31,644 nt of DNA, from IMG/VR virus record IMGVR_UViG_3300028197_000088, positions 1 to 31,644 of that record. One strand, written 5' to 3'. Shown here in pieces: positions 12,750 through 21,384 of this stretch. The first letter of the stretch is position 1. Every line of letters begins with the position of its first letter. This DNA comes from a virus. The translations under genes and the position numbers were made by a program. The notes beneath the pieces were generated by a model, which searched no databases, was not told the DNA's origin, and was given only the letters and a program-made list of their open reading frames with translations.

Positions 12750-13226
12750 ATGGAAAATTGCATAAATACAAAGATTGAACAAGCTCTAAAAAACAAGGAC
12801 ATTAAAAACATAATGCATAAAGCGTCTTCTAGATTTATGAAAGGTCTAGATCAAGATACTATTTATACATGCCAAATTAATGCACTTTGGAAGGCTTTTG
12901 TTAATTTTAAGCCAGAGAAAAATACTAAATTCACCACATATCTGTATAAAGGTGTGTTTATAGAATGTTTAAAAGCCATAAAATTTGAACGTAGACAAGA
13001 TTTTTGCAGTAGGAGTATTCACGCTAATATACCAGCAAAAAACCAAACTAATACAATGTTTGATATTTTAGACGCAATTGATAGCCATGAAGACATGGAA
13101 TTGATTCTAGACAAGTATCAGAATATGACAATTCAAGAAATGGCAGACAAGCGTGAATATAGCAGGGAAACAGTGAGGAAAAAGCTGAAAAAAATATATA
13201 GTCAGCTGAAAATTGCTTTTGATTAG
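12750..13226 (+). CDS. Phage RNA polymerase sigma factor-like protein
   Basis: A 158-residue protein with the two essential sigma70-family regions. Residues ~20-82 fit region 2: Asp-rich LDQDTIYTCQ, then ALWKAFVNFKPEKNTKFTTY and YKGVFIECLKAI, as in the core-binding and -10-recognition helices. Residues ~115-155 (MTIQEMADKREYSRETVRKK) fit a region 4 helix-turn-helix, which would read the -35 element or contact a partner. There is no region 1.1 or 3, as in small phage factors such as T4 gp55. It is the last gene before 13304 and the virion genes, so it may direct late transcription. Its target promoters are not identified here. Confidence 0.78.
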   Translation: MENCINTKIEQALKNKDIKNIMHKASSRFMKGLDQDTIYTCQINALWKAFVNFKPEKNTKFTTYLYKGVFIECLKAIKFERRQDFCSRSIHANIPAKNQTNTMFDILDAIDSHEDMELILDKYQNMTIQEMADKREYSRETVRKKLKKIYSQLKIAFD

Positions 13227-14035: not shown

Positions 14036-14066
14036 AGGGTAGCACCTCTTCGGGGGTGCTTACCCT
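14036..14066 (+). terminator. Hairpin with UUCG tetraloop, probable terminator
   Basis: AGGGTA (14036-14041) pairs with TACCCT (14061-14066). Inside it, GCACCTC (14042-14048) pairs with GGGGTGC (14053-14059; one G-U). One unpaired T (14060) bulges. The loop is C(UUCG)G, an exceptionally stable tetraloop. The following T-rich stretch is short (ATTTCT), so termination may be partial. Confidence 0.75.
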
Positions 14067-14097: not shown

Positions 14098-14688
14098 GTG
14101 ATAGAAATTAACCCAGAGATTATAGCACTTATATTTGGTGGAATTAGCGGTATAACTGGGCTTATTACGCTGATATGGAAGAAATTTCTAAAGCCAATAG
14201 TGAAATTATGTAAAAATCAAGATTTTTTTATGGAATCTGTTAATGAAATAAAAAAAGAATTATCTACTAATGGTGGAAGTAGCCTAAAAGATGCTATTAT
14301 AGGCATGAGAGAAACCGTTGATAGAATAGAAGAAAGACAAAATGTAATCATACAAAGAACTAAAGCAGCACTGCATTATAGCAGTATGGCGCTGTTTGAA
14401 ACAGACAAATCAGGAAGATTAATTTGGAGTAATGCAAACCTGTGTGAACTTACTAAAGATATAGTAACAAGCATAGAAGGGTTTGATTGGATTAATCTGT
14501 TCACGGAAGATGAAAGAGAAGAAGTACTTTCTGAATTTAAATCTTGTTTACATATGAACAGGAGATTTAGCAAAGTAACAGTCATGCAGAACAATAAAAC
14601 GGTAAGACTATTGGGGTATCCTTATAGGATTACAGACTTAGAGCATGGCGGCTTTCTAGTTAGTATAACACAAGAAAATGAGGCATAA
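14098..14688 (+). CDS. Membrane-anchored PAS-domain-like protein
   Basis: GTG at 14098 with GGAG (14087-14090) is the likely start (196 residues). Residues 7-28 form a transmembrane helix (IIALIFGGISGITGLITLIW), followed by a basic KKFLKP stop. Residues 42-90 are a helical, coiled-coil-like stretch. Residues 93-191 follow the PAS pattern: SMALFETDKSGRLIWSNANL, then LTKDI and GFDWINLFTEDEREEV, and a C-terminal sheet with VRLLGYPYR and GFLVSIT. PAS domains sense ligands, redox state or partners. There is no kinase or output domain, so it may act by protein contact at the membrane. It lies directly before a holin-like gene and a papain-like protease, a placement that suggests lysis or entry control. 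The PAS call is by pattern only. Confidence 0.7.
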   Translation: MIEINPEIIALIFGGISGITGLITLIWKKFLKPIVKLCKNQDFFMESVNEIKKELSTNGGSSLKDAIIGMRETVDRIEERQNVIIQRTKAALHYSSMALFETDKSGRLIWSNANLCELTKDIVTSIEGFDWINLFTEDEREEVLSEFKSCLHMNRRFSKVTVMQNNKTVRLLGYPYRITDLEHGGFLVSITQENEA

Positions 14689-14689
14689 A

Positions 14690-14911
14690 ATGGCAGACGA
14701 TAATAAATCACCATCATTCAGTTTGAATGTTACAGATGTTATTGAAATTAGTAAAAACACAGCTCTTGTAGCTCTAGCTGCTGGGCTAACATATTTTGGA
14801 GAAAATTTAGCAGACCTTGATCTTGGAAATCTTGGTGTCATGTTTGTACCAATCGCTGCTGTTGTAATCAGCACTGTAGTAAGATGGGCTAAGAACAACG
14901 TACCGGAGTAG
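14690..14911 (+). CDS. Small two-TM protein, holin-like
   Basis: The ATG at 14690 overlaps nothing and follows the PAS gene stop by one base; an in-frame ATG at 14678 lies inside that gene. The 73-residue protein has a hydrophilic head (MADDNKSPSFSLN), a first hydrophobic helix around residues 24-37 (NTALVALAAGLTYF), a short acidic turn, and a second helix around 45-64 (LGVMFVPIAAVVISTVVRW) with a basic tail. The size and topology fit class II holins, which make pores that start lysis. Topology alone does not prove it; no holin family motif was recognised. Confidence 0.6.
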   Translation: MADDNKSPSFSLNVTDVIEISKNTALVALAAGLTYFGENLADLDLGNLGVMFVPIAAVVISTVVRWAKNNVPE

Positions 14912-14915
14912 TAAT

Positions 14916-15836
14916 ATGTTTGAACATCCAAGAGACTTACTAAAAGCTTACAAGGACGGTTTTGTAGGCTCATGGTGTGATCCCGAAGATACCGATAAGC
15001 TACTAGGAGAACTGCCGCACCCCCTTTTTGGGGCGGCAGCTTCTAATTTATATAGCAGCGGTGAAGGTAAAGTAGCTTTATTATATAAATCTGTGCAAAA
15101 ATATGATCCCACATTTGGAGCGCACGAAAGGCAAACTACAGGAGACTGCGTGTCTCATGCTACTAGGAATGCAGTCGATGCTACTAGGTGTCATGAAATT
15201 ATTGGTGGAGACGCAGAAGATTTTGTAGCAAGAGGAGCTACAGAAGCTATATATGGCTCTAGAGGTCATGGTGGTCAAGGTATGTCTTGTTCTGTAGCTG
15301 CACGATTTGTACATCAAAATGGTGGCATTTTAGTTAGAAAAGATTATGGTTTTATTGATTTATCTAAGTACAACAGTAGAACAGGCACTAACTGGGGAAG
15401 ATCAGGAGTACCTAAGCAAGTCAAAGACGAAGGGAAGAAACATCAAGTTAAAACTATTAGTATGATCAAATCTGTAGAGGAAGCAAGAGACGCTATAGCT
15501 AATGGGTACGCTTTAAGTGTCTGTAGTAATTATGGATTTTCCTCACGCCGTAATGAACATGGAATAGCTCGCAGAAGCGGGTCATGGAATCACGCAATGT
15601 CTTGGACGGCGATGGATGATAGCAGAAAAGTTCATAACGAAACTTTATTTTTGATACAAAATAGTTGGGGTGCATTTAACGGTGGACCAAAACAACACGA
15701 TCAACCAGATGGTAGCTTTTGGGTTAGAGAAAAAGATGCTAGAGGTATGCTTAATCAAAATGGAGCTTGGGCGTATAGTGATGTGGACGGTTTTCCCCCT
15801 AGAAAAGTCGATTGGACTTTAGATGAGGTATTTTAA
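14916..15836 (+). CDS. Papain-like (C1-type) cysteine protease
   Basis: A 306-residue protein with a complete papain-like catalytic set. Gln73 and Cys78 lie in RQTTGDCVSHATRNAVD, His226 in SWNHAMSWTA, and Asn249 in LFLIQNSWG. The NSWG motif and the order Gln-Cys-His-Asn are diagnostic of clan CA. The ~70-residue N-terminal part could be a propeptide or targeting segment; no classical signal peptide is seen. It could cleave a phage structural protein, act on the host envelope, or serve as a lysis enzyme. Its place after a holin-like gene and before the fibre genes does not settle which. Its stop overlaps the next start (TAATG). Confidence 0.85.
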   Translation: MFEHPRDLLKAYKDGFVGSWCDPEDTDKLLGELPHPLFGAAASNLYSSGEGKVALLYKSVQKYDPTFGAHERQTTGDCVSHATRNAVDATRCHEIIGGDAEDFVARGATEAIYGSRGHGGQGMSCSVAARFVHQNGGILVRKDYGFIDLSKYNSRTGTNWGRSGVPKQVKDEGKKHQVKTISMIKSVEEARDAIANGYALSVCSNYGFSSRRNEHGIARRSGSWNHAMSWTAMDDSRKVHNETLFLIQNSWGAFNGGPKQHDQPDGSFWVREKDARGMLNQNGAWAYSDVDGFPPRKVDWTLDEVF

Positions 15837-18800
15837 TGTCGTCACAATTTCAACATATTCAATTACGAAGAGACACTAAAGCTAATCTTGATTTTCACAA
15901 CCCCATATTAAAACATGGAGAACCCGCTTTTGCAGTTGATTTTAATGAACTAAAAATCGGCAACGGAATTAGTGCTTGGAGAGACTTGCCAGTAGTTGGA
16001 GCTTCTAGAGTTAAAACCGTCTCAGTAAACTTACCAGCTATACAGTCTAATACATCTCATACGGAAACAGTATCCGTTACTGGAATTGATAGTGATAATG
16101 AATATTCCATATTAGTAGCTCCAGAAATATCTATACCCGACTACGTTGACATAAGATATGCACATGTGTCGGCAGACAATTCTGTAGATATTGTTTTTAC
16201 AAATATAGACAACTCAACAGTAGACGGCAATGCAAGTTCAAACTTTTCTACACCTACGTCTAACGTAAAATTACATTTGTTAATTAATATAACAAAAGTT
16301 TATGTAGAGCCTACAACGACGACTACAACTCCCCCGCCAATTATAGAAGATGTGTTTTCATTTGGACAAAATGAATTTGGACAGCTAGCTCAGGGGAATA
16401 AGGAAGAACTAAATGTACCAACGCTAGTGTATGATGGTGGTAAAAAATGGACCAGTTTTGCGCTAGGTCATTATCACGGACTAGGCGTAAGCAATACAGG
16501 AAAACTTTACAGTGTAGGTTATAATTACTATGGTCAATTAGGTCTAGGTGATAAAGGGGTTAGAACTAACAGAGCAACATTTACACCTATAGAAAAAATA
16601 TTATTTAATGATGGAGAAGTTTTCGCTTCTGGTTTAAATCTAGTATCTGATACTTTTGGGTGGAACAGTGTGAGTTGTGGTTCTCAATTTTCTTTAGCTG
16701 TTAGCTCTGATGGTCAACTTTTTTCCTGCGGAGACAATACGTATGGAGAACTAGGAGTTGGAGATAAAACTTTAAGAAAACATTTTACTCTTTCGGGTAA
16801 TCAATTTTATTATGAAGATATAACAAGTGATAACACTAGACAGTTTATGCCTACTCGTGGAGGAGTAAGGTTCTTCTCCTTGAATAACGATCAGACCCAA
16901 GCTGGTGTAAATAAACATGTGTTAAGCAAAGAGGAAGAGGCTGGAACAGATAAGTTTGCATTCATTACTCCTACAGGTGTTACTAATTTAGGAATTATAC
17001 CATCTAGCAGTGGAGTATCTTTACATATTAATGGTACTACTACTTTATCAGACGGTGTTACGCCAACTATTTCTATAACTGGCACTCTTAATACAACGAT
17101 AAATGGATACGCCTATTATTATGGAGATGTTTCTATTGATGTTTCTGGAGATTATGGAACGGCAAATCTGTTAGGTATTGGTAATGGAATAAATACCCTA
17201 GCTGACGATATACTAATATTTCAGCCCGACGTTTGGAAGAAAGTTTCAGCAGGAAACAACCACTCTGTGGGTATCATAAGGTCTAGTGGAACTCTTGATA
17301 GAGGTCAGTTATACTCTTGGGGTAACAACTCTTTTGGTCAACTTGGTCAAGATCTAACTCATAACCAAACATTAGAAACCCCACAAAAAATTATGGGATA
17401 TTACAGAGATGATAATGCTATAGCAAATTATACAAATTTAAGTTCTTTTAATGACAAAAATTTATACACTAGCAGTGAGTATTTTTATGACGTATCCTGC
17501 GGTGCGCATCATTCAGTAGCTATTGCTCATCCAGATTTTACTCCATCTTCAGGAGTTAGTGGAGTATTTGGGTTTGGAGATAATCAGTACGGACAAATAG
17601 CTTTAGGAAATGAAAATCATGTTGATGTTCCGACTAGACTGTTCTTTGATTTCTCTAAAATAGATGACACAAACTTTACAAATTTGACAAATGATACCAA
17701 TCTAGCAGTTCAAAAAATTAATGGTAAAAACCATTACGTTTTAAACTCTACAGGCAATAAAACATACAACTCATTAGAAAGATTTGTATTAGGCAAGGGG
17801 AATTATATTATCAGAGGAGTTCCTAATACTCATCCAATCGCAATATTAAACGCAGGAAAAGAATCAGCTATAACTTATAATGGCGACAATAGAATTGGAT
17901 GTACCACTGTCTATAACACAACAAATGACGCAGAGTATGAATTTTACTATGGCGATGTTTATATTAATGTTTCAAATGACTTTGATAAAGTAAGTATATA
18001 CTGCCTATATCATGGTTATATGGGTGGAGAAAATCTATTTTTCTATGAGACTCCAAAATATAATATAGAAGATGTTAAATGTGGATTAAATCATACTATT
18101 TTACAAACAGATACTGATCAAGCTGTTACTTTTGGTAGAAATCATAAGGGACAACTTGGATCTGGTGATAATCTAGATAGGAAGTCTCCTTTTAGGTTAA
18201 CTAAGGGTAACATCAAGAAGATAGAAGCTGGTGGAGATCATTCCTTCTTACTTGATAACGACAAAACGTTATGGTCTTTTGGAGATAACGATCATGGACA
18301 ATTAGGCTTAGGAGATAAATTAAATAGAGAAGTACCAACAAGATTAGATACTGATGTATTATGGCAAGACATATATGCTGATGGAAATTTTTCATACCTT
18401 AGTGTATTTTGTTTTTACCCAAATCCAGTTTCTTCTTTGTCTCTTAAAAATGCAGATACTTCCACAGTAGTTGGAAGCAGACAGTTGTTACTTGAATTCA
18501 CACATACAACAGCATATGAAGAAGGATTAATAAATTACATTATAGAAATTTCTGAAGATAGTGGTTCAACTTGGACTTCGTATGACAACTTAGCTTTTGG
18601 ATCACACTTTGGCGATAATAATAGTGAAGCTATGGAAAACGGAATATTTCAATACGTCCTTGATCGGTTAGATAATAGTAAAACTTATAAAGTTAGAGTT
18701 TCTGGAGAAAATAAAGCTGGGATTGGCTTGGCGGTAGAATCATCTAATCAAGTCAGCCCTAAAAAATCAAACTGGAGAGGTATCAGCTCGGATAAACAAT

Positions 18801-19495
18801 TGTTCTATAGTCATATGGACGAAAATGATTTAGGTGATAAAGAACTTACTTACACTACAACTACTGGCTTTTTCACAAACGCTCCTAGATACTTAAGTGG
18901 AAAGTGTGGCGAAGCATTAAGATTATATCGTCATGACAGTATAGAGTTTAATACTATAAGCTCCGTACCACAGATGGAACAGTTTACTTTAGAATTTTTC
19001 TTTAATCCAAGAAATTATGCAGAACCTAATTCTCCAGTAATAATACTAAGAGATGCAACGTATGATTATTTAAAAATGCAATATGAAGGAACAGACGCTA
19101 CAGGATATGAAATTAAAATATATGACTCTGGGAATTCTTTAATTATGAGTACAGATACTGTGCCATTTGGAGGATTAGCACCACAGCAAGAATTTAATTC
19201 GGATTCAAGACACGAAGATTATTCGCATATAGCAGTAGTAAGAAATAGCGGATTAGCATCGGACCCAACTGCTATAAATCTAGTTAAACTATATCATAAC
19301 GGATCATTAGTAGCAAGCGGAATAGATGATACTCTGTATAATGTAACTAACATATTAGTTGCTTCTGGTGATACTCCGTTTTATGATTTTGACATTGACG
19401 AGCTTTCTCTTGCCAGTGGAGACTATTATGATACATACAATACGCATAGCTTTAGCAATACTATTTTACCACAAGTGAAACCTTTTGGAGAATGA
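15836..19495 (+). CDS. Giant fibre or adhesin protein with RCC1 propeller, cupredoxin-like inserts, FN3 and LamG
   Basis: A 1219-residue protein. Residues 6-55 are the phage fibre N-terminal domain (Mtd_N-like): QLRRDTKANLDF, then ELKIGNGISAWRDLPVVG. A Thr/Pro linker follows at 160-168. Seven RCC1-type units follow, with motifs near 174, 224, 295, 492, 577, 763 and 812 (e.g. LWSFGDNDHGQLGLGD), enough for a full seven-bladed propeller. Two inserts lie between units: ~339-463 and ~600-740. The second has THPIAI (His666) and YCLYHGYM (Cys723, His726, Met729). Residues ~862-957 look like fibronectin type III, and ~977-1205 like a concanavalin/LamG fold. It is probably a host-binding structural protein. 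Confidence 0.9.
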   Translation: MSSQFQHIQLRRDTKANLDFHNPILKHGEPAFAVDFNELKIGNGISAWRDLPVVGASRVKTVSVNLPAIQSNTSHTETVSVTGIDSDNEYSILVAPEISIPDYVDIRYAHVSADNSVDIVFTNIDNSTVDGNASSNFSTPTSNVKLHLLINITKVYVEPTTTTTTPPPIIEDVFSFGQNEFGQLAQGNKEELNVPTLVYDGGKKWTSFALGHYHGLGVSNTGKLYSVGYNYYGQLGLGDKGVRTNRATFTPIEKILFNDGEVFASGLNLVSDTFGWNSVSCGSQFSLAVSSDGQLFSCGDNTYGELGVGDKTLRKHFTLSGNQFYYEDITSDNTRQFMPTRGGVRFFSLNNDQTQAGVNKHVLSKEEEAGTDKFAFITPTGVTNLGIIPSSSGVSLHINGTTTLSDGVTPTISITGTLNTTINGYAYYYGDVSIDVSGDYGTANLLGIGNGINTLADDILIFQPDVWKKVSAGNNHSVGIIRSSGTLDRGQLYSWGNNSFGQLGQDLTHNQTLETPQKIMGYYRDDNAIANYTNLSSFNDKNLYTSSEYFYDVSCGAHHSVAIAHPDFTPSSGVSGVFGFGDNQYGQIALGNENHVDVPTRLFFDFSKIDDTNFTNLTNDTNLAVQKINGKNHYVLNSTGNKTYNSLERFVLGKGNYIIRGVPNTHPIAILNAGKESAITYNGDNRIGCTTVYNTTNDAEYEFYYGDVYINVSNDFDKVSIYCLYHGYMGGENLFFYETPKYNIEDVKCGLNHTILQTDTDQAVTFGRNHKGQLGSGDNLDRKSPFRLTKGNIKKIEAGGDHSFLLDNDKTLWSFGDNDHGQLGLGDKLNREVPTRLDTDVLWQDIYADGNFSYLSVFCFYPNPVSSLSLKNADTSTVVGSRQLLLEFTHTTAYEEGLINYIIEISEDSGSTWTSYDNLAFGSHFGDNNSEAMENGIFQYVLDRLDNSKTYKVRVSGENKAGIGLAVESSNQVSPKKSNWRGISSDKQLFYSHMDENDLGDKELTYTTTTGFFTNAPRYLSGKCGEALRLYRHDSIEFNTISSVPQMEQFTLEFFFNPRNYAEPNSPVIILRDATYDYLKMQYEGTDATGYEIKIYDSGNSLIMSTDTVPFGGLAPQQEFNSDSRHEDYSHIAVVRNSGLASDPTAINLVKLYHNGSLVASGIDDTLYNVTNILVASGDTPFYDFDIDELSLASGDYYDTYNTHSFSNTILPQVKPFGE

Positions 19496-19988: not shown

Positions 19989-20231
19989 ATGGCAGTAGTA
20001 TCAACAACAGACGTTGTGACAAACCCTAACACATCGTTAGAGGTCGCAACTAACGCAAGCGTAGTGTGTAGCTGTTTGCCAACTGGCGAATCTTTTACTA
20101 TTGACACTACAACAGATAGTAATTTTGTAAACTTTGATGTCAGCATGACATACACAGCTTTACAAACTAAATTAACAGATAGATTTGATAAAATTGGATA
20201 CTATAATGCAGTAGACGGAGGCTCACCATGA
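19989..20231 (+). CDS. Small hypothetical fibre-associated protein
   Basis: An 80-residue Thr/Val/Ser-rich protein behind AAAGGAGAA. It shows a beta-strand character (VVSTTDVVTNPNTSLEVATN) with a CSC pair at residues 27-29, then helix-like YTALQTKLTDRF. It ends in an ATGA overlap with the next gene. The composition resembles its fibre neighbours rather than an enzyme. Function is unknown. Confidence 0.65.
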   Translation: MAVVSTTDVVTNPNTSLEVATNASVVCSCLPTGESFTIDTTTDSNFVNFDVSMTYTALQTKLTDRFDKIGYYNAVDGGSP

Positions 20232-20650
20232 AAAAGGGCTTGGAACTTGTGTTTGTCAGTTTAATTTCTATTGCTATAACTTTAAGTTATATTAATAAAA
20301 ATGCACAAACAAATCCTTGGTCCAATGGATTTAACAATAACTTTGGATGTAGTACTGAAGAAATATCAGGAATTTATAATAGCTATGTCAATCAATGGAA
20401 ACAAGATATATCCAGTGCTTTCGACAGGGCTGAAAAAGAAGTTTATAAAACTTCTCCTACTCCAGATGATGTTGTAGGTCCACATCCAGATCCAGATAAA
20501 TGCATTTGCAAAGGATCGGGAGTAATAAAACAAGGAGATGGTCACACTACACCATGTCCCTATCATGGCAGTAAGTATAATAAAATTCGTTCTAATTTAA
20601 AAGAACTTAACAGGACTATAACTAATCCGCTAATTATCGAGGAGAAATAA
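20228..20650 (+). CDS. Membrane-anchored protein with CxCxGxG...CPxH motif
   Basis: A 140-residue protein with an N-terminal hydrophobic helix (residues 6-20) after two lysines, so it is probably anchored or exported. A helical, hydrophilic middle follows. Residues 86-113 contain His-rich PHPDPDKCICKGSGVIKQGD and then CPYH: Cys92, Cys94, Cys110 and His113, with a CxCxGxG core as in DnaJ-type zinc modules, but closed by His rather than a fourth Cys. This could be a small zinc knuckle. It starts in an ATGA overlap and ends in TAATG, so it is made with its neighbours. No known family is identified. Confidence 0.7.
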   Translation: MKKGLELVFVSLISIAITLSYINKNAQTNPWSNGFNNNFGCSTEEISGIYNSYVNQWKQDISSAFDRAEKEVYKTSPTPDDVVGPHPDPDKCICKGSGVIKQGDGHTTPCPYHGSKYNKIRSNLKELNRTITNPLIIEEK

Positions 20651-20925
20651 TGGACATAGAAATGTATTTAAGAATCGGCGCTATTGCAATTGCTAGTATC
20701 ATTTTACTCTCAACAGTAAATGTAAACGTATCGCCCTTATTAGAGAAAATAAAATCTTTATTTAAAAGAAAAATTGTAACACCAATTCCTGAAGGAAAAG
20801 ATGTCTCTTTTTTAGAAATTGTTGAGACTTGGCACAAACTTAGAATACAGTGTGAAGTATATGGGTTGAGTGATGCAGTAGAAAAAATTGATGAAGTATT
20901 TCCATTGTTAAACACGGAGGACTAA
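20650..20925 (+). CDS. Small membrane-anchored protein
   Basis: A 91-residue protein with a single N-terminal hydrophobic stretch (residues 7-24, LRIGAIAIASIILLSTV), then a basic stretch (KIKSLFKRK) and an acidic, helical C-terminal half (VSFLEIVETWHKLRIQCEVY). The positive charges after the helix predict that most of the protein faces the cytoplasm. It starts on the stop of the preceding gene (TAATG). No family is recognised. Confidence 0.65.
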   Translation: MDIEMYLRIGAIAIASIILLSTVNVNVSPLLEKIKSLFKRKIVTPIPEGKDVSFLEIVETWHKLRIQCEVYGLSDAVEKIDEVFPLLNTED

Positions 20926-20928
20926 TAA

Positions 20929-21384
20929 ATGATCAAGAAAATCTTTGCTATTACTCTAACTTTGTTTGCAATATTTGGAGCGTCTTGGATAGACATTGAT
21001 TTATCTTCTATTATACCACGACCACAGCAAGAAGTCGTTATAGTAGATAAGCCTAGTCAAGAAATTATAAATCATGTGCAAGTAATTTCAGAAATTATTA
21101 CTGATCCTTCTGATAGAGCAAAATTAGCTATATTTAACTACGAGTTTGCAAATAGGGTTCAAAATTATAATACTAACTCTCAACAAATAAATGATGTGTA
21201 TACTTTAGCAGGTAAGAATTTTTTTGGAGGCAAGTTAGTAGACAAGTATGACAACCTATCGAGCGAACTAGTGGGGATATTTAACCAAATTTTATCACCA
21301 GATAATCATACACTTTCTAATGATGAAAAAAAACTATTGCATGATTACTTCATGGGCATAGCTTGGGTTATCGTTAATAAATAA
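20929..21384 (+). CDS. Exported or anchored hypothetical protein
   Basis: A 151-residue protein with a signal-like start: Lys-Lys, then hydrophobic residues 5-19 (IFAITLTLFAIFGAS), without a clear cleavage motif. A Pro-containing linker (IIPRPQQEVVIVDKPSQE) follows, and then a helical domain with YEFANRVQNYNT, ending in a hydrophobic FMGIAWVIV. It probably faces the periplasm or outside. It could be a spanin-like or entry-related component, but no motif shows this. GGAGG lies before the next gene. Confidence 0.7.
   Translation: MIKKIFAITLTLFAIFGASWIDIDLSSIIPRPQQEVVIVDKPSQEIINHVQVISEIITDPSDRAKLAIFNYEFANRVQNYNTNSQQINDVYTLAGKNFFGGKLVDKYDNLSSELVGIFNQILSPDNHTLSNDEKKLLHDYFMGIAWVIVNK

Follow-up and report, generated by a model that had tools for sequence, protein, structure and literature searches.

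A PAS protein, a holin-like protein and a papain-like protease encoded together in uncultured phages: a candidate lysis cassette

The holin is generally regarded as the clock that times phage lysis; few sensory inputs to this timing are known, of which lysis inhibition in phage T4 is the classic case. There, the t holin is under the control of the rI antiholin, which is tethered to the membrane, has a soluble domain and acts upon a signal. In the xhlA-xhlB-xlyA module of the Bacillus subtilis element PBSX all three genes are needed, and both in PBSX and in the bhlA/bhlB/blyA module of SPbeta a membrane protein is predicted to work with the holin (PMC5589764).

The locus described here lies in a stretch of 31,644 nucleotides (positions 1 to 31,644 of IMG/VR virus record IMGVR_UViG_3300028197_000088), referred to below as the window, whose relatives are a family of uncultured water-borne phages. 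Like the PBSX and SPbeta modules, it encodes together a putative holin partner, a small holin-like protein and a candidate lytic enzyme. Unlike in them, the partner carries a PAS domain and shows no sequence match to XhlA or BhlA above the cut-off, and the candidate lytic enzyme is papain-like where theirs is an amidase. With T4 rI/t the locus would share signal-responsive control of the holin, which we propose here; RI, however, lacks a PAS fold and does its sensing in the periplasm, whereas the PAS domain of the window is predicted to be cytoplasmic.

The original prediction, made from the DNA alone, knew of no described phage system of this make-up. Searches with the window DNA, and with proteins of the window and of its most divergent relatives, returned no relative among 50,697 phage records, and no relevant papers were found on PAS domains with holins or on papain-like lysis enzymes. 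The statement thus holds for the records and papers searched, but it has to be qualified by two deposited proteins of the same shape from uncultured Caudovirales, A0A6J5NY05 and A0A6J5QVN9, which are named merely 'PAS domain'. Both match the PAS protein of the window over its full length in a viral structure library (193 and 177 columns), at similar length (195–205 aa) and 20–24% identity.

The three genes and their products

The three genes are adjacent exactly as originally described, separated by 1 base (PAS gene and gene of the two-transmembrane, or 2TM, protein) and 4 bases (2TM gene and protease gene) according to the coordinates of their open reading frames (Table 1). The PAS gene starts with GTG; another GTG lies upstream at 14056, and the start given is preferred because relatives begin at the equivalent codon. 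For the same reason the start of the 2TM gene is placed at 14690 and not at 14678, where the mechanical open reading frame begins. Compared with six relatives, dN/dS is 0.07–0.22 for the PAS protein, 0.03–0.11 for the 2TM protein and 0.03–0.12 for the protease, which rules out inactive or decaying genes; broken frames occur in one contig only (L024/L077). Given these values, and an identical gene order in dozens of divergent contigs, the trio is more than a chance arrangement.

Table 1 Coordinates of the trio, its domains and catalytic residues, and further members of the proposed cassette in the window
Feature	Position	Strand	Remark
Protein with TM helix, coiled coil and PAS domain, 196 aa; putative holin regulator at the membrane	14098..14688	+	
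TM helix, residues 8–26, then Lys-rich stretch; predicted N-out, C-in	14119..14175	+	
PAS domain, about residues 94–192	14377..14673	+	AlphaFold model, PDB fold matches
Holin-like protein, 73 aa, two predicted TM helices	14690..14911	+	Swapped for PHROG-holin-type protein in L070
Cysteine protease of papain-like (C1) fold, 306 aa, without signal peptide, endolysin position	14916..15836	+	
Oxyanion Gln73 to nucleophile Cys78	15132..15149	+	Invariant in 40 relatives
Catalytic His226	15591..15593	+	Invariant in 40 relatives
Catalytic Asn249 (QNSWG motif)	15660..15662	+	Invariant in 40 relatives
Secreted/membrane-anchored Cys-motif protein or lipoprotein (CxCxGxG..GDGH..CPxH), further cassette member	20228..20650	+	
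91-aa single-TM protein, further cassette member	20650..20925	+	
151-aa protein, N-terminal TM anchor, probable periplasmic domain, further cassette member	20929..21384	+	

Following the transmembrane helix of the PAS protein is a Lys-rich stretch, WKKFLKPIVKLCK, which makes an N-out/C-in topology with a cytoplasmic C-terminal domain probable; helices span residues 42–57 and 61–93. The suspected PAS-like domain is present in the AlphaFold model, with pLDDT of about 85–94 across the domain and its elements in PAS order, and a fold search of the PDB agrees (193 chain matches at E ≤ 1e-3, headed by LOV domains, NifL and MmoS and including heme-PAS proteins). Such matches come from fold comparison only, a sequence-profile search of the PDB having returned none for the PAS protein or the protease. 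In Pfam the window protein scores 13.9 bits for PAS_9 (cut-off 27); its relative at locus L072 reaches 28.8 bits for PF00989, above the cut-off of 22.6, and also passes PF08447.

Invariant in the PAS domain are F100, E101, T102, D103, G106, W110, G128, D130, W131, C150, R170, G173, P175 and G185–L187. A LOV photosensor was considered and rejected: the GxNCRFLQ cysteine motif of FMN binding is missing in all 16 aligned sequences. No ligand motif was identified in the domain. As the protein carries no kinase, cyclase or other output domain, any signal would have to pass through the helix and the membrane anchor to a partner. Alternatively, the PAS fold may be only a cytoplasmic dimerisation or scaffold module of a BhlA/XhlA-like lysis protein that senses nothing, a real possibility if less than a likely one. 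It would fit two loci (L094 and L099) at which a TM-coil protein lacking the domain occupies the place of the PAS gene, making the domain dispensable for the cassette, and the lack in the core of both the LOV NCRFLQ motif and an invariant His among the aligned relatives; purifying selection on the PAS half and its invariant core speak for more than a scaffold. The window PAS protein has no match to the BhlA (PF10960) or XhlA profiles, and the L094 TM-coil relative scores 13.0 bits in this comparison, under the cut-off of 22.6.

The 2TM protein has one clear transmembrane helix (residues 46–64) and a weaker, A/G-rich one (about 22–40), joined by an acidic loop free of Lys and Arg that suggests an N-in/C-in orientation. 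Its family has no convincing holin match in PHROG: the best is phrog_9801, of unknown function, and a single member matches the holin family phrog_920 with an E value of 0.09.

The protease is modelled with a papain fold, the nearest PDB entry being xylellain of the bacterium Xylella fastidiosa (3ois, E 1e-8), with which it shares both fold and Gln-Cys-His-Asn set; unlike xylellain (16% identity), it is phage-borne and encoded beside a holin-type gene. The full catalytic set that had been read from the sequence is confirmed by the fold and by the invariance of all four residues. The window protein itself does not match Pfam PF00112, for which a relative at L020 scores 14.8 bits and one at L180 27 bits, above the cut-off of 20.7. 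Neither a transmembrane helix nor a signal peptide is predicted for it; the distant L180 relative, from a planctomycete metagenome-assembled genome (MAG; Thermoguttaceae), starts with a Tat-type signal, MRRREWLKTAAAAGFGL, which fits action of the protease outside the cytoplasm.

Insertions and fusions occur among the relatives. Inserted directly before the catalytic Cys in one protease gene is an intein (L154, 3–890), and an intein/LAGLIDADG insert brings another protease to 680 aa (L060, 6807–8849). In a distant clade (L020–L025), the protease is accompanied nearby by a fusion of a 2TM protein with a ComEA-like helix-hairpin-helix domain (L020, 3172–3657).

Synteny and exchange of holin-like genes

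Conservation of the locus was assessed in a sample for which the protease search took the best 80 of 269 relatives, and the proportions of locus types describe that sample. Profile searches place the ordered PAS–2TM–protease trio at 51 of 90 distinct protease sequences, mostly with 1–10 bases between genes; the 2TM and protease genes occur together in 6 further loci, and the protease alone in 31. In many relatives the protease is distant from the PAS gene or the PAS gene is missing. Neither outcome that would have spoken against the original prediction was seen: the PAS fold is present, and the genes are not always scattered in related phages but stay side by side. That the three genes belong together is well supported.

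Directly 3' of the PAS gene is a holin-like gene at all 53 distinct PAS loci, belonging to the 2TM family at 52 of them. At the remaining one (L070), a small protein of an unrelated family, here called KSRRFW, stands in place of the 2TM protein. At two of the 53 loci, L070 and L072, the PAS gene and its holin-like neighbour have no protease gene beside them. This family matches PHROG holins: phrog_297 in 11 of 14 members, phrog_9987 in 8 (best E 1.6e-5), phrog_4712 in 4 and phrog_34682 in 1. In 30 of the 31 loci that have neither PAS nor 2TM gene, a KSRRFW gene also follows the protease at a distance of 0.3–1.3 kb. Two unrelated holin-like families thus appear to fill the same role, and it is this replacement, at L070 and in the 30 loci, that argues for a holin function of the 2TM protein. 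When mapped on a tree built from 86 proteases, the presence of the PAS gene changes about 5 times, with at least 3 changes forced by well-supported branches. Taken with the neighbour found at every PAS locus, this indicates that the PAS gene comes and goes, never without a holin-type gene beside it.

T4 uses small 2TM proteins for superinfection exclusion. The PAS and 2TM proteins might likewise form an exclusion or membrane-takeover device (compare T4 Imm/Sp), the protease being a separate host-takeover enzyme and the lysis genes lying elsewhere; besides the T4 precedent, the pair without an adjoining protease at L070 and L072 and the rII-type genes of the window would suit such a device. We regard it as unlikely, since a family with matches to PHROG holins both displaces the 2TM gene and alternates with it, protease and holin-type genes are linked in nearly all loci amid tail-fibre genes, and the search described below found no other endolysin family.

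Beyond the trio, the window encodes rIIA- and rIIB-type lysis-inhibition genes (30–2492), which would matter should lysis prove to be regulated here, and a small sigma-factor-like protein (12750–13226; phrog_351, E 1e-7), which many relatives also encode ahead of the trio. Downstream, at 15836–19495, is a tail-fibre-type protein that combines an Mtd_N domain with RCC1 propeller repeats and matches fibronectin III weakly; at other trio loci the downstream neighbour is likewise a large fibre-type gene, differing in make-up. The three small genes between 20228 and 21384 recur downstream in relatives and are split from the trio in the window by the tail-fibre genes. A trypsin-like serine protease gene is found in 12 of 17 related records, in one of them (G005, 15843–16403) preceding the trio by about 14 kb, and a phage-encoded tmRNA candidate with the tag GVENYAMAA in another (G009; L171, 19084–19400).

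Tail-fibre genes (Mtd_N, RCC1) follow the protease gene immediately, a position that would also suit a virion- or ejection-associated enzyme within a set of structural or entry genes, as would the 168-aa protein of unknown role interposed in L094 and L099. We consider this quite unlikely: the linked genes encode membrane proteins and holin families, virion-protein profiles match none of the three proteins, and neither a target peptide nor a link to a scaffold was seen.

Proposed lytic function and the search for a known endolysin

One related record, G005 (locus L047; 166,604 bases), carries an exact 123-base terminal repeat and is therefore probably complete. When 138 of its proteins were compared with Pfam (those of 110 aa or more save a few very large ones, in a search blind to an unknown endolysin fold), no lysozyme, amidase, CHAP, NLPC, M15 or transglycosylase was found; the families that did appear belong to nucleotide metabolism, replication, glycosyltransferase, Clp and trypsin. 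In 16 related records of 90–167 kb, the six endolysin or amidase families PF00959, PF01464, PF01510, PF08291, PF05257 and PF00877 are all absent, and CHAP and NLPC_P60 were not found in the record of the window. The window protease itself matches no Pfam endolysin domain (lysozyme, SLT, amidase, CHAP, NLPC/P60, M15), and we know of no papain-family C1 enzyme that serves as a phage endolysin.

The trio probably constitutes the core of a late lysis cassette, made up of a PAS-fused BhlA/XhlA-like regulator, a 2TM holin and the papain-like protease in the place of an endolysin. Of the 'lysis or entry step' first suggested, lysis is favoured by the holin swap, by the link of holin-type gene and protease in loci without the PAS gene and by the G005 scan, in which no endolysin was recognised among the proteins covered; entry found no support. 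Invariant adjacency, a common membrane location and the lack of any other output domain suggest that the PAS protein regulates the holin. The protease may be the lytic enzyme, as suggested by its position, by the absence of any rival candidate and by the relative with a Tat signal.

According to this model, the 2TM protein would be the holin of a large uncultured phage, and the PAS protein an inner-membrane partner of BhlA/XhlA type, acting as co-holin or antiholin, whose cytoplasmic domain would let cell state or dimerisation influence the time at which the holin fires. The protease, which has no export signal, would be set free by the holin and may then cut an envelope component, either peptide cross-links or an envelope protein. 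The lipoprotein-like and transmembrane proteins encoded downstream would probably assist at the envelope.

Possible hosts and implications

Of 39 related virus records, 13 contain genes of the DUF1501 family, some of them in several copies (up to four per record). The phage copies are of planctomycete type (L183, 84–2703; records G001, G009, G010, G034, G036 and others). In G001, a close relative with a protease 88% identical to that of the window, DUF1501 adjoins a PSCyt2/PSD1 protein. In 149 genomes of Planctomycetota, the phylum of the L180 MAG, the best match has 54% identity, and there are many copies per genome. As PSCyt and PSD domains occur in Verrucomicrobia too (PMC5615132), these genes hint at hosts among the Planctomycetota or Verrucomicrobiota, indirectly for the window phage. 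Some relatives sit in archaeal or SAR202 MAGs; such hosts were considered and rejected, since the contigs are small, the taxa are mixed, and a bacterial sigma factor and DNA polymerase III are encoded by the phages, all of which suggests misbinning. The walls of Planctomycetota and Verrucomicrobiota were long thought to be proteinaceous and were later found to contain peptidoglycan (PMC4432640).

In its fullest form, the proposal is a sensor-gated lysis clock in phages of these phyla, with the membrane-anchored PAS domain reading redox or metabolite state and gating the holin, and a papain-type protease opening the hosts' unusual envelope instead of an endolysin that cuts peptidoglycan; we put this forward tentatively, as a doubtful extension of the lysis-cassette reading. 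If the hosts are indeed Planctomycetota or Verrucomicrobiota, the locus would offer a rare view of the route by which their phages exit the cell. A PAS-fused membrane protein that always stands beside a holin would, if the reading is true, make signal-dependent lysis timing directly testable, and phage lysis would gain a new catalytic class if its principal enzyme here proved to be of the C1 papain type.
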